Assembly: GCA_022402445.1 (NCBI GenBank)
Contig: JAKRSF010000004.1
Coordinates: forward strand, 443,876-507,875
Direction of reading: 5' to 3'
DNA length: 64,000 nt
Source: Cyanobacteriota bacterium
GTDB taxonomy: Bacteria > Cyanobacteriota > Cyanobacteriia > CACIAM-69d
Shown here: positions 3,681 to 43,259 of the stretch, piece after piece
Layout of the letters: the number at the start of each line of letters is the position of its first letter
How positions within the stretch are numbered: the stretch's first letter is position 1
The notes under the pieces: model-generated
Seen by the model: the letters and a program-made list of their open reading frames with translations, nothing else
The model's database searches: none
Told to the model about the DNA's origin: nothing
Position numbers and translations under genes: made by a program

Positions 3681-4490
3681 ATGATGCGTCGCAAGATTTT
3701 GATTGTCGCCAAAACCTATCCCAACATTAGCCGTAAGTATCGCGAAACCGTCTGTACGGCTGGACTGCTTTTAGATGACTCAGAGCAGCCTCTGCAATGG
3801 ATTCGGATCTACCCAGTCCGCTTCCGAGACCTAGACCAGGACCGGCGCTATAAACGCTGGAGCATTATCGAAGCCAATATTGAAAAAAATCCCAAAGACC
3901 CGCGCCGAGAAAGCTTCCGTATCGAGGACGAATCTATTGTCGTTATTCGTCAACTTGACACCAAAAATGCCTGGCAAGAGCGCCGTGCCATGCTTTTACC
4001 CTTCAAGGATCCCTCAATTCGAGCCATTCGAGAAGCGGGGCGATCACTAGGCTTAATCAAACCTAAAAGCATCAGTCGATTTTTGGTGAAACCAATTGAA
4101 CGCGATTGGACCCTCAGTCAGCAGGCAATTCTAGATCAGGGAGACTTGTTCCGTGAGGAGCAAGCATTCCTAGATCTTGAAAAAATTCCCTATCGTTTTC
4201 TGTATCAATTTGTAGATGAAGAAGATGCCCAACACAAATATTCCATTTTGGATTGGGAAATTTTGCAACTCTATCGAAATGTCAGAAATGTCTCTCGCGA
4301 TCGCTCGCTCCCCGAAAGAGAATCTGATGCCCTAGAGAAAATGAAGCAGAAATTGGAGGAGAAGTTTATGAGCAACGATATAGATCTGCATTTTATTGTG
4401 GGAAATCAACAGAAATATCCCAAAACCTTCATGATCATTGGACTTTTTTATCCTCAGTTGATAAAATCTCAGCAAATGAGTCTTTTTTAG
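3681..4490 (+). CDS. Uncharacterised protein paired with DUF488
   Basis: I do not recognise a named family in this 269-residue protein. It begins RRKILIVAKTYPNISRKYRE, is rich in charged residues (Arg, Glu, Asp), has no signal peptide or membrane segment, and is probably cytosolic. The middle has many Arg-Asp pairs (RFRDLDQDRRYKRW). The end holds a short charged helix and closes with QQMSLF. Its DNA is clearly more AT-rich than the flanks and has almost no HIP1 sites, which suggests recent acquisition. The DUF488 gene follows after 14 bp, so the two are almost certainly co-transcribed. Confidence 0.8.
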   Translation: MMRRKILIVAKTYPNISRKYRETVCTAGLLLDDSEQPLQWIRIYPVRFRDLDQDRRYKRWSIIEANIEKNPKDPRRESFRIEDESIVVIRQLDTKNAWQERRAMLLPFKDPSIRAIREAGRSLGLIKPKSISRFLVKPIERDWTLSQQAILDQGDLFREEQAFLDLEKIPYRFLYQFVDEEDAQHKYSILDWEILQLYRNVRNVSRDRSLPERESDALEKMKQKLEEKFMSNDIDLHFIVGNQQKYPKTFMIIGLFYPQLIKSQQMSLF

Positions 4491-19827: not shown

Positions 19828-21822
19828 ATGACTCGCAACAAATGGATGCAGCGTTTGCTAGGGGCGGTGGGGCTCGGCGGCTGGGGGCCGGGGCGATCGC
19901 GTCGGTGGCCGGTGCTTTTGGCCTGGTCATTGGTGGCGCTGCTGGGGGTTGCGGGCTGTGCGGATCGTTCCGTGGCGCTGGAGCCGGAGGTGCAGGGTCG
20001 GCTGGCGGGGGTGAAGGGAACCGGCGGGCGATCGAGTCCCCTCGAAGAGGTGGCTCCCCCGGAGGTGTTGCAGCGGCTGGGGCAAACCCTGGCGGTCCAC
20101 CGGCCCCAGGTGACGATCGCGCAACCGAAGCCGGAGCAAACGCTCCAGGACAATCGGGTGGCGGTGCAGATCCAAGTCAAGGATTTACCTATTTTTAAGG
20201 ATGCGGATCTGGGCCTCGGTCCCCATGTGCGGGTGCTGCTGGACGATCGCCCGGTGGCGGAGATCTATGACCTATCGGAGCCGCTGATCCTAGAGAACCT
20301 AGAGCCCGGTACCCACACCCTGCGAGCTTTTGCGGCCCGACCCTGGCACGAAAGTTTTAAAAATGACGGGGCCTTTGCCCAGGTGACGTTCCATGTCTAT
20401 GCGGCGAATGGGCGCAATCAGCCGGATCGCGATCGCCCCCTCCTGACCTACAGCGAACCGGAAGGGAACTATGGCGCAGAGCCGCTGCTGCTGGACTTTT
20501 ACCTCACCAATGCCCCCCTCCACTGGCTAGCGCGGGAGCGGGACGATGACGACATCGAAGACTGGCGGGTGCGAGTGACCGTCAACGGCTCCAGCTTCGT
20601 CCTCGACGGCTGGCAACCGATCTATCTCAAGGGGTTCAAGCCGGGGACCAGTTGGGTGGAGCTAGAGCTTTTGGGGGACGGGGGCGCGCCCATCGAGAAT
20701 GTCTATAACCATCCGATCCGCACCATCGCCTATCGGCCGGGGGGCCAAGATGCCCTGAGTCGCCTGTTGCGTGGCGAAATGCCCCTGGTGGAAGCCCTGG
20801 CGATGGTGGATCCTGACTATGTGCCGCCGCAACCGGAGCCTGCACCGGCGGTCGAAGACTCCCAGCCGGAGCTTGAACTAGAGCCGGAGCCAGCGATCGA
20901 AGACTCCCAGCCAGAACCGGAACCGGAGCCAGTGGTCGAAGACTCCCAGCCAGAACCAGAACCAGAACCGGAGCCGGAACCAGCGGTTGAGAACTCCCAG
21001 CCGGAACCAGAACCGGAGCCGGAACCGGAACTAGAGCCGGAGCCAGCAGCGGTTGAAGACTCCCAGCCGGAGCCGGAGGAGCCAACGGGATCAGCGGTGG
21101 AAGAGGCCCAGAACTCGCTGACGGCGGGGCCAGAATCGGAGAACAGCCCTGGGGAGGTGCCTGCTGAACCGATGGAGTCGGGGGCTGGCGCGGCTGAATC
21201 GCGGAATGCAGAGGCGGCGCGGGAGCCAGAGGTAGGGGAAACGGGCGGGGCTGAAGCCGGGGCTGGGACCGACCCATCTGCCCTAGGGGCTGCATCGGAG
21301 GATGGGGCAGCGCTACCCGAGGCGGAACCGGTGGCTATCCCAGAGTCTGACCCGTTGCCCGACCCGCTGCCCGATCCGGAGGTGGCCCCAGAGCCTTCCC
21401 TTTCTGGCGCTGCGGAGTCCGTTGATTCGGGCATTCTAGACCTAGAGGGGTCTGAGCCTGCGTCCGGTGATGGGGCTGCTCCCGCCGCGATCGCCCCCGC
21501 CGCTGAACCGGAGCTTGGGTTAGAGGCTGAGGCTGAGGCTGAGTTACTCCCCGCTGGGCCAACGGAGCCCGTGGCTGCGCCCGTGGTGGATGACGCCCTG
21601 GGGCAAGAACCGCCCGCCGTTTCAGATCCCGATCCCGTCGAGGGCGGCGACCCAGTGGATGCCCCGGAACCCGCCGCCGTGGTTTCCCCCGCGATCGCCC
21701 CGGCACCCCCCGTGGAACCGGACGGGGCCACCGCGATCGCCCCTGCCGACAAACCCCTCCTCAAGGTCCGCAAAGCCCTGCTGACCTGGCTAGAGATGCG
21801 TATCAACCAACAGCAGCCCTAG
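19828..21822 (+). CDS. Lipoprotein with long Pro/Glu-repeat C-terminal region
   Basis: The 664-residue product has a basic start, a hydrophobic stretch (LLAWSLVALLGVAGC) and a lipobox with Cys44, so it is probably an envelope lipoprotein. Residues about 90-335 form a conserved-looking globular part (VRVLLDDRPVAEIYDLSEPL, HTLRAFAARPWHESF) that I know only as an uncharacterised cyanobacterial domain. From about 340 it becomes a repetitive acidic tail with near-identical units VEDSQPEPEPEP, then an Ala/Pro/Glu-rich stretch, and it ends with a short basic-hydrophobic helix, LLKVRKALLTWLEMRI. The tail is probably disordered and may span the periplasm or contact the wall. Function is unknown. Confidence 0.82.
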   Translation: MTRNKWMQRLLGAVGLGGWGPGRSRRWPVLLAWSLVALLGVAGCADRSVALEPEVQGRLAGVKGTGGRSSPLEEVAPPEVLQRLGQTLAVHRPQVTIAQPKPEQTLQDNRVAVQIQVKDLPIFKDADLGLGPHVRVLLDDRPVAEIYDLSEPLILENLEPGTHTLRAFAARPWHESFKNDGAFAQVTFHVYAANGRNQPDRDRPLLTYSEPEGNYGAEPLLLDFYLTNAPLHWLARERDDDDIEDWRVRVTVNGSSFVLDGWQPIYLKGFKPGTSWVELELLGDGGAPIENVYNHPIRTIAYRPGGQDALSRLLRGEMPLVEALAMVDPDYVPPQPEPAPAVEDSQPELELEPEPAIEDSQPEPEPEPVVEDSQPEPEPEPEPEPAVENSQPEPEPEPEPELEPEPAAVEDSQPEPEEPTGSAVEEAQNSLTAGPESENSPGEVPAEPMESGAGAAESRNAEAAREPEVGETGGAEAGAGTDPSALGAASEDGAALPEAEPVAIPESDPLPDPLPDPEVAPEPSLSGAAESVDSGILDLEGSEPASGDGAAPAAIAPAAEPELGLEAEAEAELLPAGPTEPVAAPVVDDALGQEPPAVSDPDPVEGGDPVDAPEPAAVVSPAIAPAPPVEPDGATAIAPADKPLLKVRKALLTWLEMRINQQQP

Positions 21823-21871: not shown

Positions 21872-22537
21872 GTGCATCGGCAACCTACCCCCACCAGCCA
21901 CCCCTCCGATCTGACCCACGATGCCTCCCGGCAGCTCAAACAATGGATGCGTCAGGCCGGAATCCGCAGTTGGCGCACCCTTGCGGAAGCCGCCGACCTC
22001 TCCCTGTACCAAATCCGCCAGTTGCGCGCTGGCGACATCGAACGGATGCGCCTCGGCACGATTGATCGCGTCGCCCGCGTCCTCCAGGTCAGCCCCGTCA
22101 GCCTCATCAGCGCCGTCACCGCCGATCGCGCCACCGGCGGCACCGGAGACCTGGTGCAACTCCAGCAGGAATACGAACGGCTCAAGGCCCAGATGGCCAG
22201 CGATCGCGAAACCATGGCCCTGCGCTGGCAGCAGGAAGCCCTAGCAACCCTAGAACCCTGGCTGCTCGGTTGCTACACCGCCGCCGACGCCGCCCGCCAA
22301 AATCCCCAGATGCCCGCCCGCACCCTGCTGCACCTGATGCAGCCCCTTGATCGCCTGCTGCACACCTGGGACGTGGAGCAAATCGCCCCCATTGGCGAAG
22401 AGCTGGCCTACGACCCCCAGTGGCATACCCTCACCAAGGGCCACGCGGAACCGGGTGATCGCGTCCGGGTCACCATGCCCGGTTTTCGCCACCGCCGCAA
22501 ACTCCTGCATCGGGCCCACGTCGTCCCCATCACCTAG
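21872..22537 (+). CDS. HTH protein with GrpE-like C-terminus
   Basis: The 221-residue product starts with an XRE-type helix-turn-helix (SWRTLAEAADLSLYQIRQLRAGD, about residues 33-56), followed by a coiled coil (LQQEYERLKAQMASDRE). The C-terminal half resembles the GrpE fold: a four-helix-like part with LLHLMQPLDRLL, then IGEELAYDPQWH and RVRVTMPGFRHRRKLLHRAHV, the strand pattern of GrpE. In cyanobacteria this composite is annotated as a GrpE-like HTH protein. GrpE is the exchange factor of DnaK, so a chaperone-linked regulator is possible. Start is GTG at 21872; an in-frame ATG at 21947 would cut the HTH. Confidence 0.75.
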   Translation: MHRQPTPTSHPSDLTHDASRQLKQWMRQAGIRSWRTLAEAADLSLYQIRQLRAGDIERMRLGTIDRVARVLQVSPVSLISAVTADRATGGTGDLVQLQQEYERLKAQMASDRETMALRWQQEALATLEPWLLGCYTAADAARQNPQMPARTLLHLMQPLDRLLHTWDVEQIAPIGEELAYDPQWHTLTKGHAEPGDRVRVTMPGFRHRRKLLHRAHVVPIT

Positions 22538-22690
22538 GCCAAAGCACCCAGGCACCCCGATCGCGCCCCCAGCCCAACAGACTCCCGAAGGCTGGCGATC
22601 GCCCCCCAAACGCCCCTCCAAAAAAATAGGGGCAAGGGAATCAACCCCCCACCCCAGGGCAAACCCGGACCCCTCCGCCAAGCAAAGCGC

Positions 22691-22722
22691 GGCTGGGTCA
22701 GGCTCCCGAGCGCCGCCCCTAC
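22691..22722 (-). repeat. Degenerate GC-rich palindromic repeat
   Basis: GGCTGGGTCAGGC, then GCCGCCCCTAC, resembles the palindromic element at 32351-32391 and 49748-49779. The end of this copy provides the stop codon of the pentapeptide reading frame. Similarity is partial. Confidence 0.35.
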
Positions 22723-23787
22723 TTCGGCAGACTCGAATGGCTGAGGTTCGCCCCCCGGAGCTTTGCCCCACTGAGCCTCGCCCCCGCCAGATTCGTCTCC
22801 CGCAGATCCGCCGCCGTCATATCCGCCTGGGAAAAGTCCGTATCGTCAAAGATCGCCCCCCGCAGGCTCGCCCCCGTCAGGTTCGCCCCCCGCAGGTTTG
22901 CCCCCGTCAGGTTCGCCCCCCGCAGTTGCACCCCGCTGAGGTTTGCCCTGCTCAAGTCGGCCCGGGTCAAATCCATATCGTTGAACCGAACCCCCCGCAG
23001 GTCCGCCCTGCTGAAATTGATGGCGTTGAGCTTCGCCCCCGTCAGGTTCACCCCCGTCAGCAGGGTATTGGACAAATTCGCCCGCAGGAGAGACGCCCCA
23101 CTGAGGTTGGCCTTGCTGAGGTCCGCCCCCTGGAGGTCCGCCTCCACAAGGTTTGCCTCCTGCAAATTCGCCTCGATGAACCGAGCCCCCGTCAGGGTCG
23201 CCGGTCCAATGCGCTGGTTGCGCTCATAGACCATGCCGAAGTTGGTGCGGGTGAGGGTGGCGCGGCTGAGGTCCGCGTTGCGGAGATTTCCACCCGACAG
23301 GACTGCCCCACTGAGGTTGACCCCCGTCAGGTCGGCGGCGGGCAGTTGCACGTTTTGGAGGCTGGCCCCGGCCAGGTCCGCGTTGGCGAAGTTGGATCCC
23401 CCCCACGGGGCTACTGGTGAGGGGGTCGCTGGCTCCGTTGACGACTCCCTGTACGGTGTCTGGGCCTAGGGGCGCGCTGTCTTCGCCGGTGGCGTTGGTG
23501 GTGTTGGGGTCGGTGGTGTTGGCGTTGGTGGTGTTGGGGGCCGCTGTGGCGCTGGTGGTGGTGTTGGGGTCTTCCCCTTTGGGAGGGGCGATCGCCGCAT
23601 CCGTAGCGTCAGCCGTAGCGTCGGCCGGAGGGGTTGTCGGGTCAGCGGGGCCACGGCCAAGGCTGCTGAGGCGATCGCACGACGCTAGGGTCATTAGGGG
23701 AAACAGACCCAGGGCCGTGATCCCAATGAGTTGGAAAATGCGGCGCTGGGGGTTGAGAGATTTGTTGTGGTTGTGGTTGTGATGCAT
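22719..23787 (-). pseudogene. Lipoprotein-anchored pentapeptide-repeat gene, frame broken at a G7 tract
   Basis: From ATG 23787 one frame encodes a lipoprotein start (lipobox LMTLASC, Cys37) and a Thr/Asn/Pro-rich linker with repeats such as TTNANTTDPNTTNA. At 23398-23404 seven G (minus strand) interrupt it. The +1 frame then continues as GSNFANADLAGASL and about 40 pentapeptides of the form A(D/N)LXX to the stop at 22719. Removing one G would restore a single 355-residue protein, a right-handed beta-helix tethered to the membrane. Neither half alone looks complete. It may be a pseudogene, a phase-variable gene, a +1 frameshift or a sequencing error. Function is unknown. Confidence 0.8.
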
Positions 23788-25568
<1,781 letters not shown>

Positions 25569-39464: not shown

Positions 39465-42400
39465 ATGGCCGCGCAACCCAGCTTCGAGACCTACAGCGAC
39501 CTGCTGCCCCCCCAGAATATCGATGCGGAAGAGTCGATCCTGGGGGGGATTTTGTTGGATGCGGAGGCGATCGGTCGGGTGGCGGATCTGATCACCCCCG
39601 AGGCGTTCTATCTCGGTGCCCACCGCCATATTTTTGAGGCGATGCTAGATCTCAGTCGGCGCGGTAATCCGACGGATCTGGTGACGGTGACGGCGTGGCT
39701 CCGCGATCGCGACCTGCTCGACAAGATTGGCGGCCCCCAGAAGCTCACGGAACTGCTCGATCGCACCGTCAGCGCCGTCAATATTGATCGCTACGCCGCC
39801 CTGGTGGCCGAAAAGCACGTGCGCCGCAAACTCATTGCCGTCGGCGGTGACATTGCCCAACTGGCCTTTGATAACCGTCAAGACCTGGGGCAACTGCTGG
39901 ACACGGCGGAACAGAAACTCTTTGGCGTCACCCAATCGGACATTAAGCAGGATCTTGTTTCCACGGAAGAAATCCTAGCGGAAACGTTTCTAGAGCTAGA
40001 AAGCCGCAGTATGGACGATTCTGTCCCCGGTCTCACCTGCGGCTTCTATGACCTCGACACCATGACCCAGGGCTTCCAGCGATCGGATCTGGTGATTGTG
40101 GCGGGGCGTCCGAGTATGGGCAAGTGCCTGAGCGCCGACGCCCAGATTCTGCTAGCCGACGGCAGCCTCCAAACCATTGGCGACATCTACCGCCAGAAAA
40201 ATGCCACCCTGCTCACCCTGGGCCAGGACTGGCGATTTCGCCTCACCCAGCCCAGCACCTACGTGGATGACGGCATCAAACCCGTTTTCAAGGTCAAAAC
40301 CCGCACCGGACGCGAAATTGAAACCACCCTCACCCACCCTTTCCTAACCATTCAAGGCTGGATGCCCCTGGCGGAATTGCCGGTGGGCACCAAAATCGCC
40401 GTGCCTCGGGTGCTGCCGGTTTTTGGAGATGAACGTCTTCCGGAACATCAGGTCAAACTGTTGGCCTATCTCATTGGGGACGGCTGCCTAACAGGAACCT
40501 CGCCGCAGTTTACTAATGAAAATCCCCAAATTCAGGAGGAGTTCACCGCCGCCGCCCTGCAATGTTCAGCGATTCAGATTTGCGAAGAACAGGGCATCTG
40601 GGATCAATCGGACCATCAAAAAACGATTCCATCGGCAATCTTTCGACTTAAAAAGCCACTGTTAGCCCTCTTTCTCAATCGCCTCTTTGCTACGGATGGT
40701 TGGGCCACGGTCTTGGCAATCGGTCAGGCCCAGCTTGGCTTTGCCTCCGTGAGTGAAACCCTGGCCCGTCAAGTTCAGCACTTACTGCTGCGGTTTGGCA
40801 TTGTATCCCAGCTTAAGGCCCGCGCAATTAAGTATCAGGGGGGGCGTCGCGCGGCTTGGCAGATTGATATTACCGATGCCCGATCCATAAAAACCTTCAG
40901 CCAGGACATTGGTATCTTTGGCAAAGAAGCGGCCCTAGCTAAGGTCGAAGCGACCCTAGAAAATCGTCGCTACCAGACTAATCGAGATCTCATTCCGGTC
41001 GAAATTTGGGACCGACTTCATATCGCCAAGGGGACTGAATCTTGGGTTTCGCTGGCAAATCGGGCCGGATTCCAAAACACGAGCAATATCCATGCGGGAA
41101 CACGGGCCCTTAGTCGCGATCGCGGGCTTGCCCTAGCCACCGCCCTAGGGGATCTAGAGCTTCAGCAGATAGCCACCAGCGAAGTCTATTGGGATGAAAT
41201 TGTCGCCATTGAACCCCAGGGACCGAAGCAGGTCTACGATCTAACCATTCCCGAGACCCATAATTTTGTCGCCAACGATATCTGCGTTCATAACACCAGT
41301 TTTGTGCTCAATATCGCCCGCAATTTGGCGGCAATCAATGGCCTACCGGTGGCGACCTTTAGCTTGGAAATGTCGAAGGAGCAGTTGGTCTATCGATTGC
41401 TGTCGAGTGAGGCGCAGATCGAGACGGGGCGACTGCGATCGGGTCGCATTAGTGAGAACGAGTGGGCGCAGATCGGGACGGCCATTAATACCCTGTCGAA
41501 TCTCAAAATCTTCATTGACGACACGCCCAACATTACGGTCAATGAAATGCGCTCAAAATGTCGGCGACTCCAGGCGGAATCGGGCGGCGCGCTGGGGATG
41601 GTGATCCTCGATTACCTGCAATTGATGGAGGGGGGCGGCGATAACCGGGTCCAGGAACTGTCGAAAATTACGCGATCGCTCAAGGGCCTCGCGAGGGAAT
41701 TAAATGTGCCCGTGTTGGCCCTATCCCAGTTGAGCCGTGGGGTTGAATCGAGAACTGACAAACGTCCGGTCATGTCAGACCTGCGGGAGTGCGTAACCGG
41801 CGACACCCTGGTGTGTCTGGCCGATGGTAGACGTGTGCCCATTGCTGAGTTGGTGGGGCAAACCCCAACGGTCATCAGCATGAACGCCAAGGGTAAATTG
41901 ATCTCGGCTCCGGCTGAGGTGGTTTGGGAAGTGGGAACCAAACCCATTTATGAACTCAGCACCGCGAGCGGGCGAAAAATTAAAGCTACGGAAAAACATC
42001 GCATTTATACCCTAGACGGCTGGCGATCGCTAGCATCCTTAGCAGTAGGGCATCGTATTGCCGTTGCTAACCACATCCCCCAACTGCAACCCGCCGCAGA
42101 TCCTTGGCCAGAAGCTCATATTGTGCTTTTGGCTCACCTCATTGGCGATGGCAGCTACATTCCCCATCAGCCGCTGCGCTACACGACCGCATCGGAGGAG
42201 AATTCAGCCATTGTGACCTGGGCCGCAGAAACCTTTGGCTGCACCGTCAATCGACATGCGGGTAGAGGCAATTGGCATCAGCTTGTGATTTCAGGAAATG
42301 GTAACCGTTGGCACCCCGCTGGAGTCGGCTTATGGTTGCGGCAGTTGGGGATTTTTGGTCAGCGCTCAGCCCATAAACACGTTCCCCCTGGGGTGTTTCA

Positions 42401-43259
42401 ACTGCCCAAGCATCAAATTGCTCTGTTCCTACAGCATCTTTGGGCAACGGATGGTTGCATCAGCAGCTATCACCACCCCAACGGCAAAAGCTACAAGGCC
42501 AGTATCTTTTTCTCGACGGTGAGTGAAGCCCTAGCTAGGGATGTGGCCGCTTTATTGTTGCGCCTCGGCATCCACAGCACCCTGAAATGGACGTCGGGCC
42601 AGTGCTACACCGTCCAGATCTACGGCAAAACCCATCAGTTAAGTTTTCTGGAACAGGTGGGAGCTTTTGGCCCCAGGGTAGGACCAGCCGCCATTGCTAA
42701 GGCGGAGTTGTTGCAACGGGGACCGGCTAATCCTAATCGAGACACGATTCCGATTGAGGTCTTTGATCGCGTTAAGGCTGCCATGAAGACCCAGGGCATT
42801 TCCCAACGTCGCATGGCTGAGTTACGCGGCACGTCTTTTGGTGGATCGTCCCATTTCAAATTTGCCCCCAGCCGTGAGGTTTTGCGAAGCTATGCCGAAG
42901 TTCTCCAGAGTGCAGAATTAACAGATCTGATCAATTCGGATTTGTTTTGGGATGAAGTTGTTGCCATCGAGCCTGCGGGGGAGGCTCCGGTCTATGATTT
43001 GACTGTGCCTGGGCCTGCATCCTGGTTGGCGGATGGGTTGATTTCCCATAATTCTGGGTCTATCGAACAGGATGCAGATTTGATTGTGATGCTGTATCGG
43101 GAGGAATACTACAATCCTGATACGCCCGATCGCGGCATTTCCGAAGTGTTGATTAAGAAGCATCGAAATGGCCCGACGGGTACGGTCAAATTATTGTTTG
43201 AGCCGCAATATACCCGCTTCCGTAATTTGGCGGGTGGCCAAGGACGATCCGAATATTAA
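39465..43259 (+). CDS. dnaB: Replicative DNA helicase DnaB with two inteins
   Basis: DnaB is the ring-shaped helicase that opens DNA at the replication fork. The open frame encodes 1264 residues, but two inteins (221-610 and 776-1196) interrupt it, leaving about 453 residues of normal DnaB. The N-terminal domain has [15 protein letters not shown]; the ATPase P-loop reads GRPSMGK before the first intein and [12 protein letters not shown] after it, and Walker B is [10 protein letters not shown]. The second intein sits between DLRE and SGSIEQDAD. Splicing is required for function. The exteins are GC-rich like the genome, the inteins less so. Confidence 0.97.
40125..41294 (+). other. DnaB intein 1 (P-loop site)
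   Basis: The 390-residue element starts at Cys221 ([14 protein letters not shown]) and ends with VHN610, followed by extein Thr in TSFVL. It interrupts the Walker A motif after GRPSMGK, known as the DnaB-a site. Splicing blocks are visible: the N-terminal block with [15 protein letters not shown] (block B, THPF) and the C-terminal block [30 protein letters not shown]-type homing endonuclease lies between them, with [11 protein letters not shown] and [10 protein letters not shown] as the two repeats. GC content and HIP1 density fall below those of the exteins. Confidence 0.95.
41790..43052 (+). other. DnaB intein 2 (DLRE-SGSIEQD site)
   Basis: The 421-residue element starts at Cys776 ([15 protein letters not shown]) and ends SHN1196, followed by extein Ser. 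The site matches the well-known DnaB-b position of Synechocystis and other cyanobacteria. Block B has [13 protein letters not shown], and the C-terminal block reads [20 protein letters not shown]. An endonuclease domain with [11 protein letters not shown] and [11 protein letters not shown] is present, and an extra helix-turn-helix-like part ([16 protein letters not shown]) near the end may help DNA binding. Both catalytic-looking Asp residues remain, so homing may still work. Confidence 0.95.

Follow-up and report, generated by a model that had tools for sequence, protein, structure and literature searches.

The described proteins closest to the one encoded at this locus are cyanobacterial pentapeptide-repeat proteins (PRPs). 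HetL, a PRP from Nostoc (3DU1), forms a pentapeptide-repeat beta-helix and, to our knowledge, is not known as a lipoprotein. Rfr32 from Cyanothece (2F3L/2G0Y) resembles the protein described here in being a cyanobacterial PRP with a signal peptide, and differs in that this peptide has 29 residues, that its account in a review of PRPs mentions no lipobox, and that the protein has five and a quarter coils (PMC8145042). The word lipoprotein is absent from the main text of the same review, which describes the biochemical functions of PRPs in cyanobacteria as almost completely unknown (PMC8145042). A literature search revealed no work in which pentapeptide repeat, cyanobacteria and lipoprotein occur together in the title or abstract. 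As a gene whose frame changes at a tract of about seven G, pldA of Helicobacter pylori is the counterpart; variation between cells is reported for such G-tract genes (PMC2831843), whereas the gene described here is known from one assembly.

The gene is located on the minus strand at positions 23787-22719 of the window, which is the whole 64,000-nucleotide stretch of DNA that was analyzed. One frame encodes a lipoprotein start and a linker rich in Thr and Asn (23787-23405), another encodes a PRP beta-helix (23396-22722), and the two frames meet at a run of seven G (G7) at 23404-23398 on the minus strand. Both frames can be read directly from the DNA. The first-pass annotation had described a lipoprotein start with a Thr/Asn linker and a long pentapeptide beta-helix in two frames joined at G7, and its coordinates and frames were confirmed. 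The features are as follows.

23224-23787, minus strand: lipoprotein ORF of 187 aa with an ATG start at 23787; 130 residues through the tract, then an out-of-frame tail of 57 residues; stop codon at 23226-23224
23677-23787, minus strand: signal peptide predicted from the sequence, with RR in the n-region, a hydrophobic core and the lipobox L-A-S-C (Cys37)
23405-23676, minus strand: low-complexity Ala/Asp/Thr/Asn/Pro linker, from the translation
23398-23404, minus strand: G7, the frame junction; the codon-model switch interval is 23379-23404
22719-23465, minus strand: open PRP frame, 248 aa from stop to stop, with no ATG, GTG or TTG before the first repeat
22722-23396, minus strand: predicted pentapeptide-repeat right-handed beta-helix of 225 residues (PF00805 at 9.3e-69 for the part from 23351; AlphaFold2 model)
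22629-22655, minus strand: terminator-like site made up of a stem and a T-run, 63 bases downstream of the PRP stop codon; weak evidence

The terminator-like site is one of three in the region, against a mean of 1.7 in shuffles, which makes it a weak indication. The neighbors are what we take to be an S-adenosylhomocysteinase-like gene (24180-25568) and a Cro/C1-type HTH gene (21872-22537, PF13443).

That the two parts are one gene split at G7 is well supported by the frames and their joint, the coding character of both halves, the rarity of the lipoprotein signal, the lack of a start codon in the PRP frame, and intact analogues. It is with moderate confidence that a recent slippage indel is considered the most likely cause of the split. 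A weak coding score of the lipoprotein half, the silence of a strict frameshift scan and the dependence of a run test on its settings are among the points against a slip in one gene.

The 187-residue frame from the ATG at 23787 reads MHHNHNHNKS...RRIFQLIGITALGLFPLMTLASC and shows a lipoprotein signal with Cys37 as the putative lipidation site, followed by the Ala/Asp/Thr/Asn/Pro linker. Our own pattern search detected both the lipobox L-A-S-C and the hydrophobic h-region. Comparable signals are rare: when 12,042 ATG codons from 464 kb of this genome were tested, only 6, at 5 places, had one. No match to the ORF was found in Pfam up to an E-value of 1 or in NCBIfam up to 0.01. Across the three codon positions, the GC content changes from 0.61/0.58/0.76 upstream of the tract to 0.84/0.66/0.48 downstream; the codon pattern of this frame is lost behind the tract, and the 57-residue tail does not look coding. 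With a codon model trained on the window, the lipoprotein frame scores +0.076 per codon, against -0.51 and -0.59 in the other two minus-strand frames. As coding sequence this half is weak: its total score is 9.7 over 127 codons, and none of the 40 called genes of the window scores as low as 0.076 (their range is 0.096 to 0.346). A low score fits a low-complexity linker. Another frame in the window (19828-21822, plus strand, 664 aa) has a lipobox-like signal and long Pro-Glu repeats, with no Pfam match at an E-value of 0.001.

The PRP half is an unbroken array (SNFAN ADLAG ASLQN ...), whose first repeat SNFAN begins at 23396, directly behind G7. It contains at least 8 consecutive repeats of the A(D/N)LXX type and matches PF00805 with 226.9 bits (cut-off 20.2) in 7 stretches. 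Its frame scores +0.229 per codon, against -0.72 and -0.35 in the other two frames, and thus both halves look coding. For the sequence behind 23405, a single-sequence AlphaFold2 model has a pLDDT of 81 and a pTM of 0.76, with a regular 5-residue strand pattern. In the model the beta-helix begins almost from the first residues, directly behind the tract, where the first ten residues have a pLDDT of 67. The predicted fold is consistent with a right-handed quadrilateral beta-helix.

The Foldseek matches listed for this model are PRPs, PRP-containing effectors or designs on the same fold; the TM-scores are mostly low (0.13-0.72 depending on the query) and the superposition of most matches is poor. 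The best geometry was obtained with EfsQnr (2W7Z; TM 0.72, rmsd 2.3). HetL is the first match by E-value (5.8e-14; TM 0.45, rmsd 12.1) and was also found with phmmer (1.3e-26), but the score against the NCBIfam family penta_HetL (NF047416) is 157.7 bits, below its cut-off of 260. The Alr5209 family PRP profile (NF052603) gave 134.7 bits in 4 stretches, above its curated cut-off of 125 bits; this profile is only 113 long and the score is a sum of repeated matches, and the protein was not filed under it. The genome is rich in PRP stretches, with at least 119 PF00805 matches at E-values up to 1e-5 among the 150 of 203 candidates scored.

Within the PRP frame, no ATG, GTG or TTG precedes the first repeat. 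Among the 24 distinct PRP frames examined from 39 loci of the same genome, a sample that does not cover every PRP gene and includes one frame truncated at the end of its locus, 23 possess a start codon ahead of the first repeat, and this frame is the exception. A GTG is present at 23351 in the PRP frame, and a third of orphan frameshift singletons are expected to be gene overlaps according to PMC3711429; both would fit an arrangement of a short lipoprotein gene and a separate gene, with a start codon of its own, for a cytoplasmic PRP. That GTG is inside the array, however, and initiation there would remove its first 15 residues. With no start codon before the first repeat and a lipoprotein tail that lacks coding character, the two-gene arrangement is the least likely of the explanations considered.

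The switch between the frames was positioned with the codon model at 23395 as the best point; the interval is 23379-23404 at a tolerance of 2 log units and 23378-23414 at one of 3. The junction could lie anywhere in a 70-base interval (23465-23396), and simple arithmetic from the number of G/C runs in this genome gives about 3.5% for a chance overlap of this interval with a run of at least 7. The coincidence of G7 with the junction is thus suggestive only. That number is 215 runs of at least 7 G or C (148 of 7, 55 of 8 and 12 of 9) in 464,000 bases, namely the window and 20 stretches of 20 kb from the same genome.

The main rival to a slip is an error of sequencing or consensus at G7, with the gene intact in the organism. 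In the assembled sequence a single such error would look just like a slip, and the gene has no other damage. Lone frameshifts are described as either indels or sequencing errors, and those confirmed by BLASTP are expected to be errors rather than true indels (PMC3711429). Against an error stand the completeness of the assembly, 99.93%, and the behavior of the other runs. In a run test designed after the site had been seen, with a threshold (4) just below the upstream value of the focal site (4.8), 106 of the 215 runs are flanked on both sides by coding sequence in one frame and a single run, the focal G7, changes frame; 104 are not clearly coding on both sides and 4 are at the ends of stretches. 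The test was repeated with 15 settings under a wider edge rule, by which 5 runs instead of 4 were set aside; 63 to 118 runs keep the frame and 0 to 2 change it, which did not alter the weighing of the explanations. Nearly all comparable runs keep their frame, and the assembly is therefore not generally broken at them; that it seldom breaks at G/C runs holds in every setting. The first-pass annotation had pointed to poly-G as a site of sequencing error. As a general homopolymer error this is made unlikely by the counts (106 against 1, and 63-118 against 0-2 over the 15 settings), while an error confined to this site is still conceivable, if unlikely.

Whether the run test singles out the focal site varies with the settings chosen. 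It was called in 6 of the 15, as the sole frame change in 4 and together with L208:2237-2244 in 2; it was not called in the other 9, which are all 5 settings with 30-codon flanks and those with high thresholds. Besides L208:2237-2244, the runs L200:12904-12911 and L218:15616-15622 show a frame change in some low-threshold settings, the latter two with 30-codon flanks. A strict frameshift scan did not flag the focal site. A looser scan of the 464 kb yielded 173 transitions, 62 of them with both segments of at least 150 bases, and 13 of these 62 are frameshift-like, including the focal one. It is the only one of the 13 with a run of at least 7 within 40 bases, where about 0.5 are expected by chance. 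Transitions with no such run nearby, among others at 4311 and 4528 in L209, 505 and 351 in L203, 15623 and 15336 in L204, and 11071 and 10901 in L217, may be noise of the model.

From the lipoprotein frame to the repeat frame the net step is +1 (or -2). A G-run could slip during expression, and both halves are free of other damage, so that ribosomal frameshifting or RNA polymerase slippage might produce the joined protein from the present DNA. The common -1 shift, however, leads into the third frame, where a stop is reached at the 24th codon after the tract; -1 recoding is excluded by this wrong frame, and +1 or -2 would be needed. The prfB frameshift signal has a stop codon at the shift site, unlike the site here. 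For the 78 bases downstream of the tract, folding is as good or better in 186 of 200 shuffled versions (z +1.16), so that the actual sequence ranks below most of them. Recoding is accordingly considered very unlikely.

No orthologue of the gene was recognized in 58 relatives or in 387 other genomes of the class. The PRP part found generic PRPs in all of the 58 relatives and in its own genome. The class search covered 388 genomes including its own, with at most 7 candidates scored per genome; 46 genomes, again including its own, have a match with an E-value below 1e-28, and the best of the others is 3.4e-35 with 44% identity. Apart from its own, the matches form a continuous slope with no outlier. 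A scan of GTDB species genomes, from which records of its own or a very near genome may be left out, gave at least 585 pattern matches and 373 relatives, with a top identity of 48% among the best 80 of these. For the lipoprotein part, the best match outside its own locus had an E-value of only 0.0062 in a search up to 10. The relatives drawn include no second genome of the genus.

Synteny was analyzed at 30 loci around the S-adenosylhomocysteinase-like gene, from its own genome and 29 others, most with flanks of 1.5 kb and some with shorter ones. The PRP pattern was found only in the gene itself and in a weak frame in L034. In five other genomes of the family, the HTH gene is on a different contig from the S-adenosylhomocysteinase-like gene. 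In the stretches fetched around the HTH gene, the pattern search found a PRP only in L073, where it flanks the HTH gene on the opposite side and, judged by eye, has a plain signal peptide.

The first-pass annotation had also named G7 as a typical site of phase variation, by which the G-run would slip back and forth and switch the anchored helix on and off in the population. The G-tract is indeed inside a gene for a probable envelope protein, and a G insertion in a 7-nt poly-G is reported to inactivate pldA of Helicobacter pylori (PMC2831843). The support ends at the tract itself: the window contains 50 overlapping 7-G matches (34 runs of at least 7 of either letter), against a mean of 71.4 matches in shuffles, and is not enriched in them. 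With 215 G/C runs of at least 7 in 464 kb, G7 is short and common here, and runs of 8 and 9 are also present, so that it is not an unusually long tract for this genome. Of 99 genomes, only 9 show an excess of poly-G tracts of 7 or 8 in their coding genes (PMC2831843). The tract is behind residue 128 and not near the start, and a literature search for cyanobacteria, phase variation and homopolymer returned no title naming cyanobacteria. Phase variation was sought among clusters of homologues in PMC3711429; here no orthologue with the tract was recognized among the 58 relatives and the 387 other class genomes, and there is thus no such cluster to inspect. A phase-variable switch is improbable, and a shade more so is its specific form, a cyanobacterial G-tract switch of a membrane-anchored PRP beta-helix between the complete protein and a lipoprotein that has a nonsense tail in place of the helix. 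If the tract were variable between cells, it would represent slippage switching in a cyanobacterium and offer a handle on the role of anchored PRPs.

The combination of a lipoprotein signal and pentapeptide repeats is found intact elsewhere. In the same genome, L203:19278-19802 (G000:C9:559278-559802, minus strand) encodes a protein of 175 aa that has, like the focal gene, an ATG, a lipobox signal peptide (its own L-T-G-C), a linker (Pro/Thr/Ala) and pentapeptide repeats, all in one frame. It differs in its shorter linker and array and in a C-P-G-C motif before the repeats, and shows no sign of orthology. Three Chloroflexota loci (L077, L079 and L119) encode lipobox signals that continue directly into a repeat array. 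None of these four is taken as an orthologue. Lipobox-like signals were recognized in 6 of 167 PRP frames, 5 of which are counted as convincing (the one in L131 is doubtful); a stricter hydrophobicity rule applied to more loci gave 4 of 186, a count that is not comparable with the former.

Since no orthologue with joined halves was recognized, we infer the original single gene from the anatomy of the locus and from these analogues. It would have encoded a secreted lipoprotein with a signal peptide, a lipidated Cys37, a flexible Thr/Asn linker and a PRP beta-helix of about 225 residues. Judged from its sequence, the intact protein would consist of a beta-helix anchored in the envelope through a flexible stalk, the linker, which would keep the helix off the membrane. 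Replication slippage would have changed the length of the G-run and thereby shifted the helix into another frame. From the present DNA, the expected product is a lipoprotein of 187 residues, the last 57 of them meaningless, and the helix would be lost in the cell. Neither half has a further stop or frame change, and the change is therefore likely to be recent or only partly fixed. The case is an ordinary one; if it is a plain indel, it matters for annotation only, with one lipoprotein-PRP to be marked as disrupted.

Elsewhere in the window, a DnaB helicase frame of 1264 aa (39465-43259, plus strand) includes two intein-splicing stretches (PF14890) and two LAGLIDADG-like stretches (PF14528), and probably contains two inteins with homing endonucleases.
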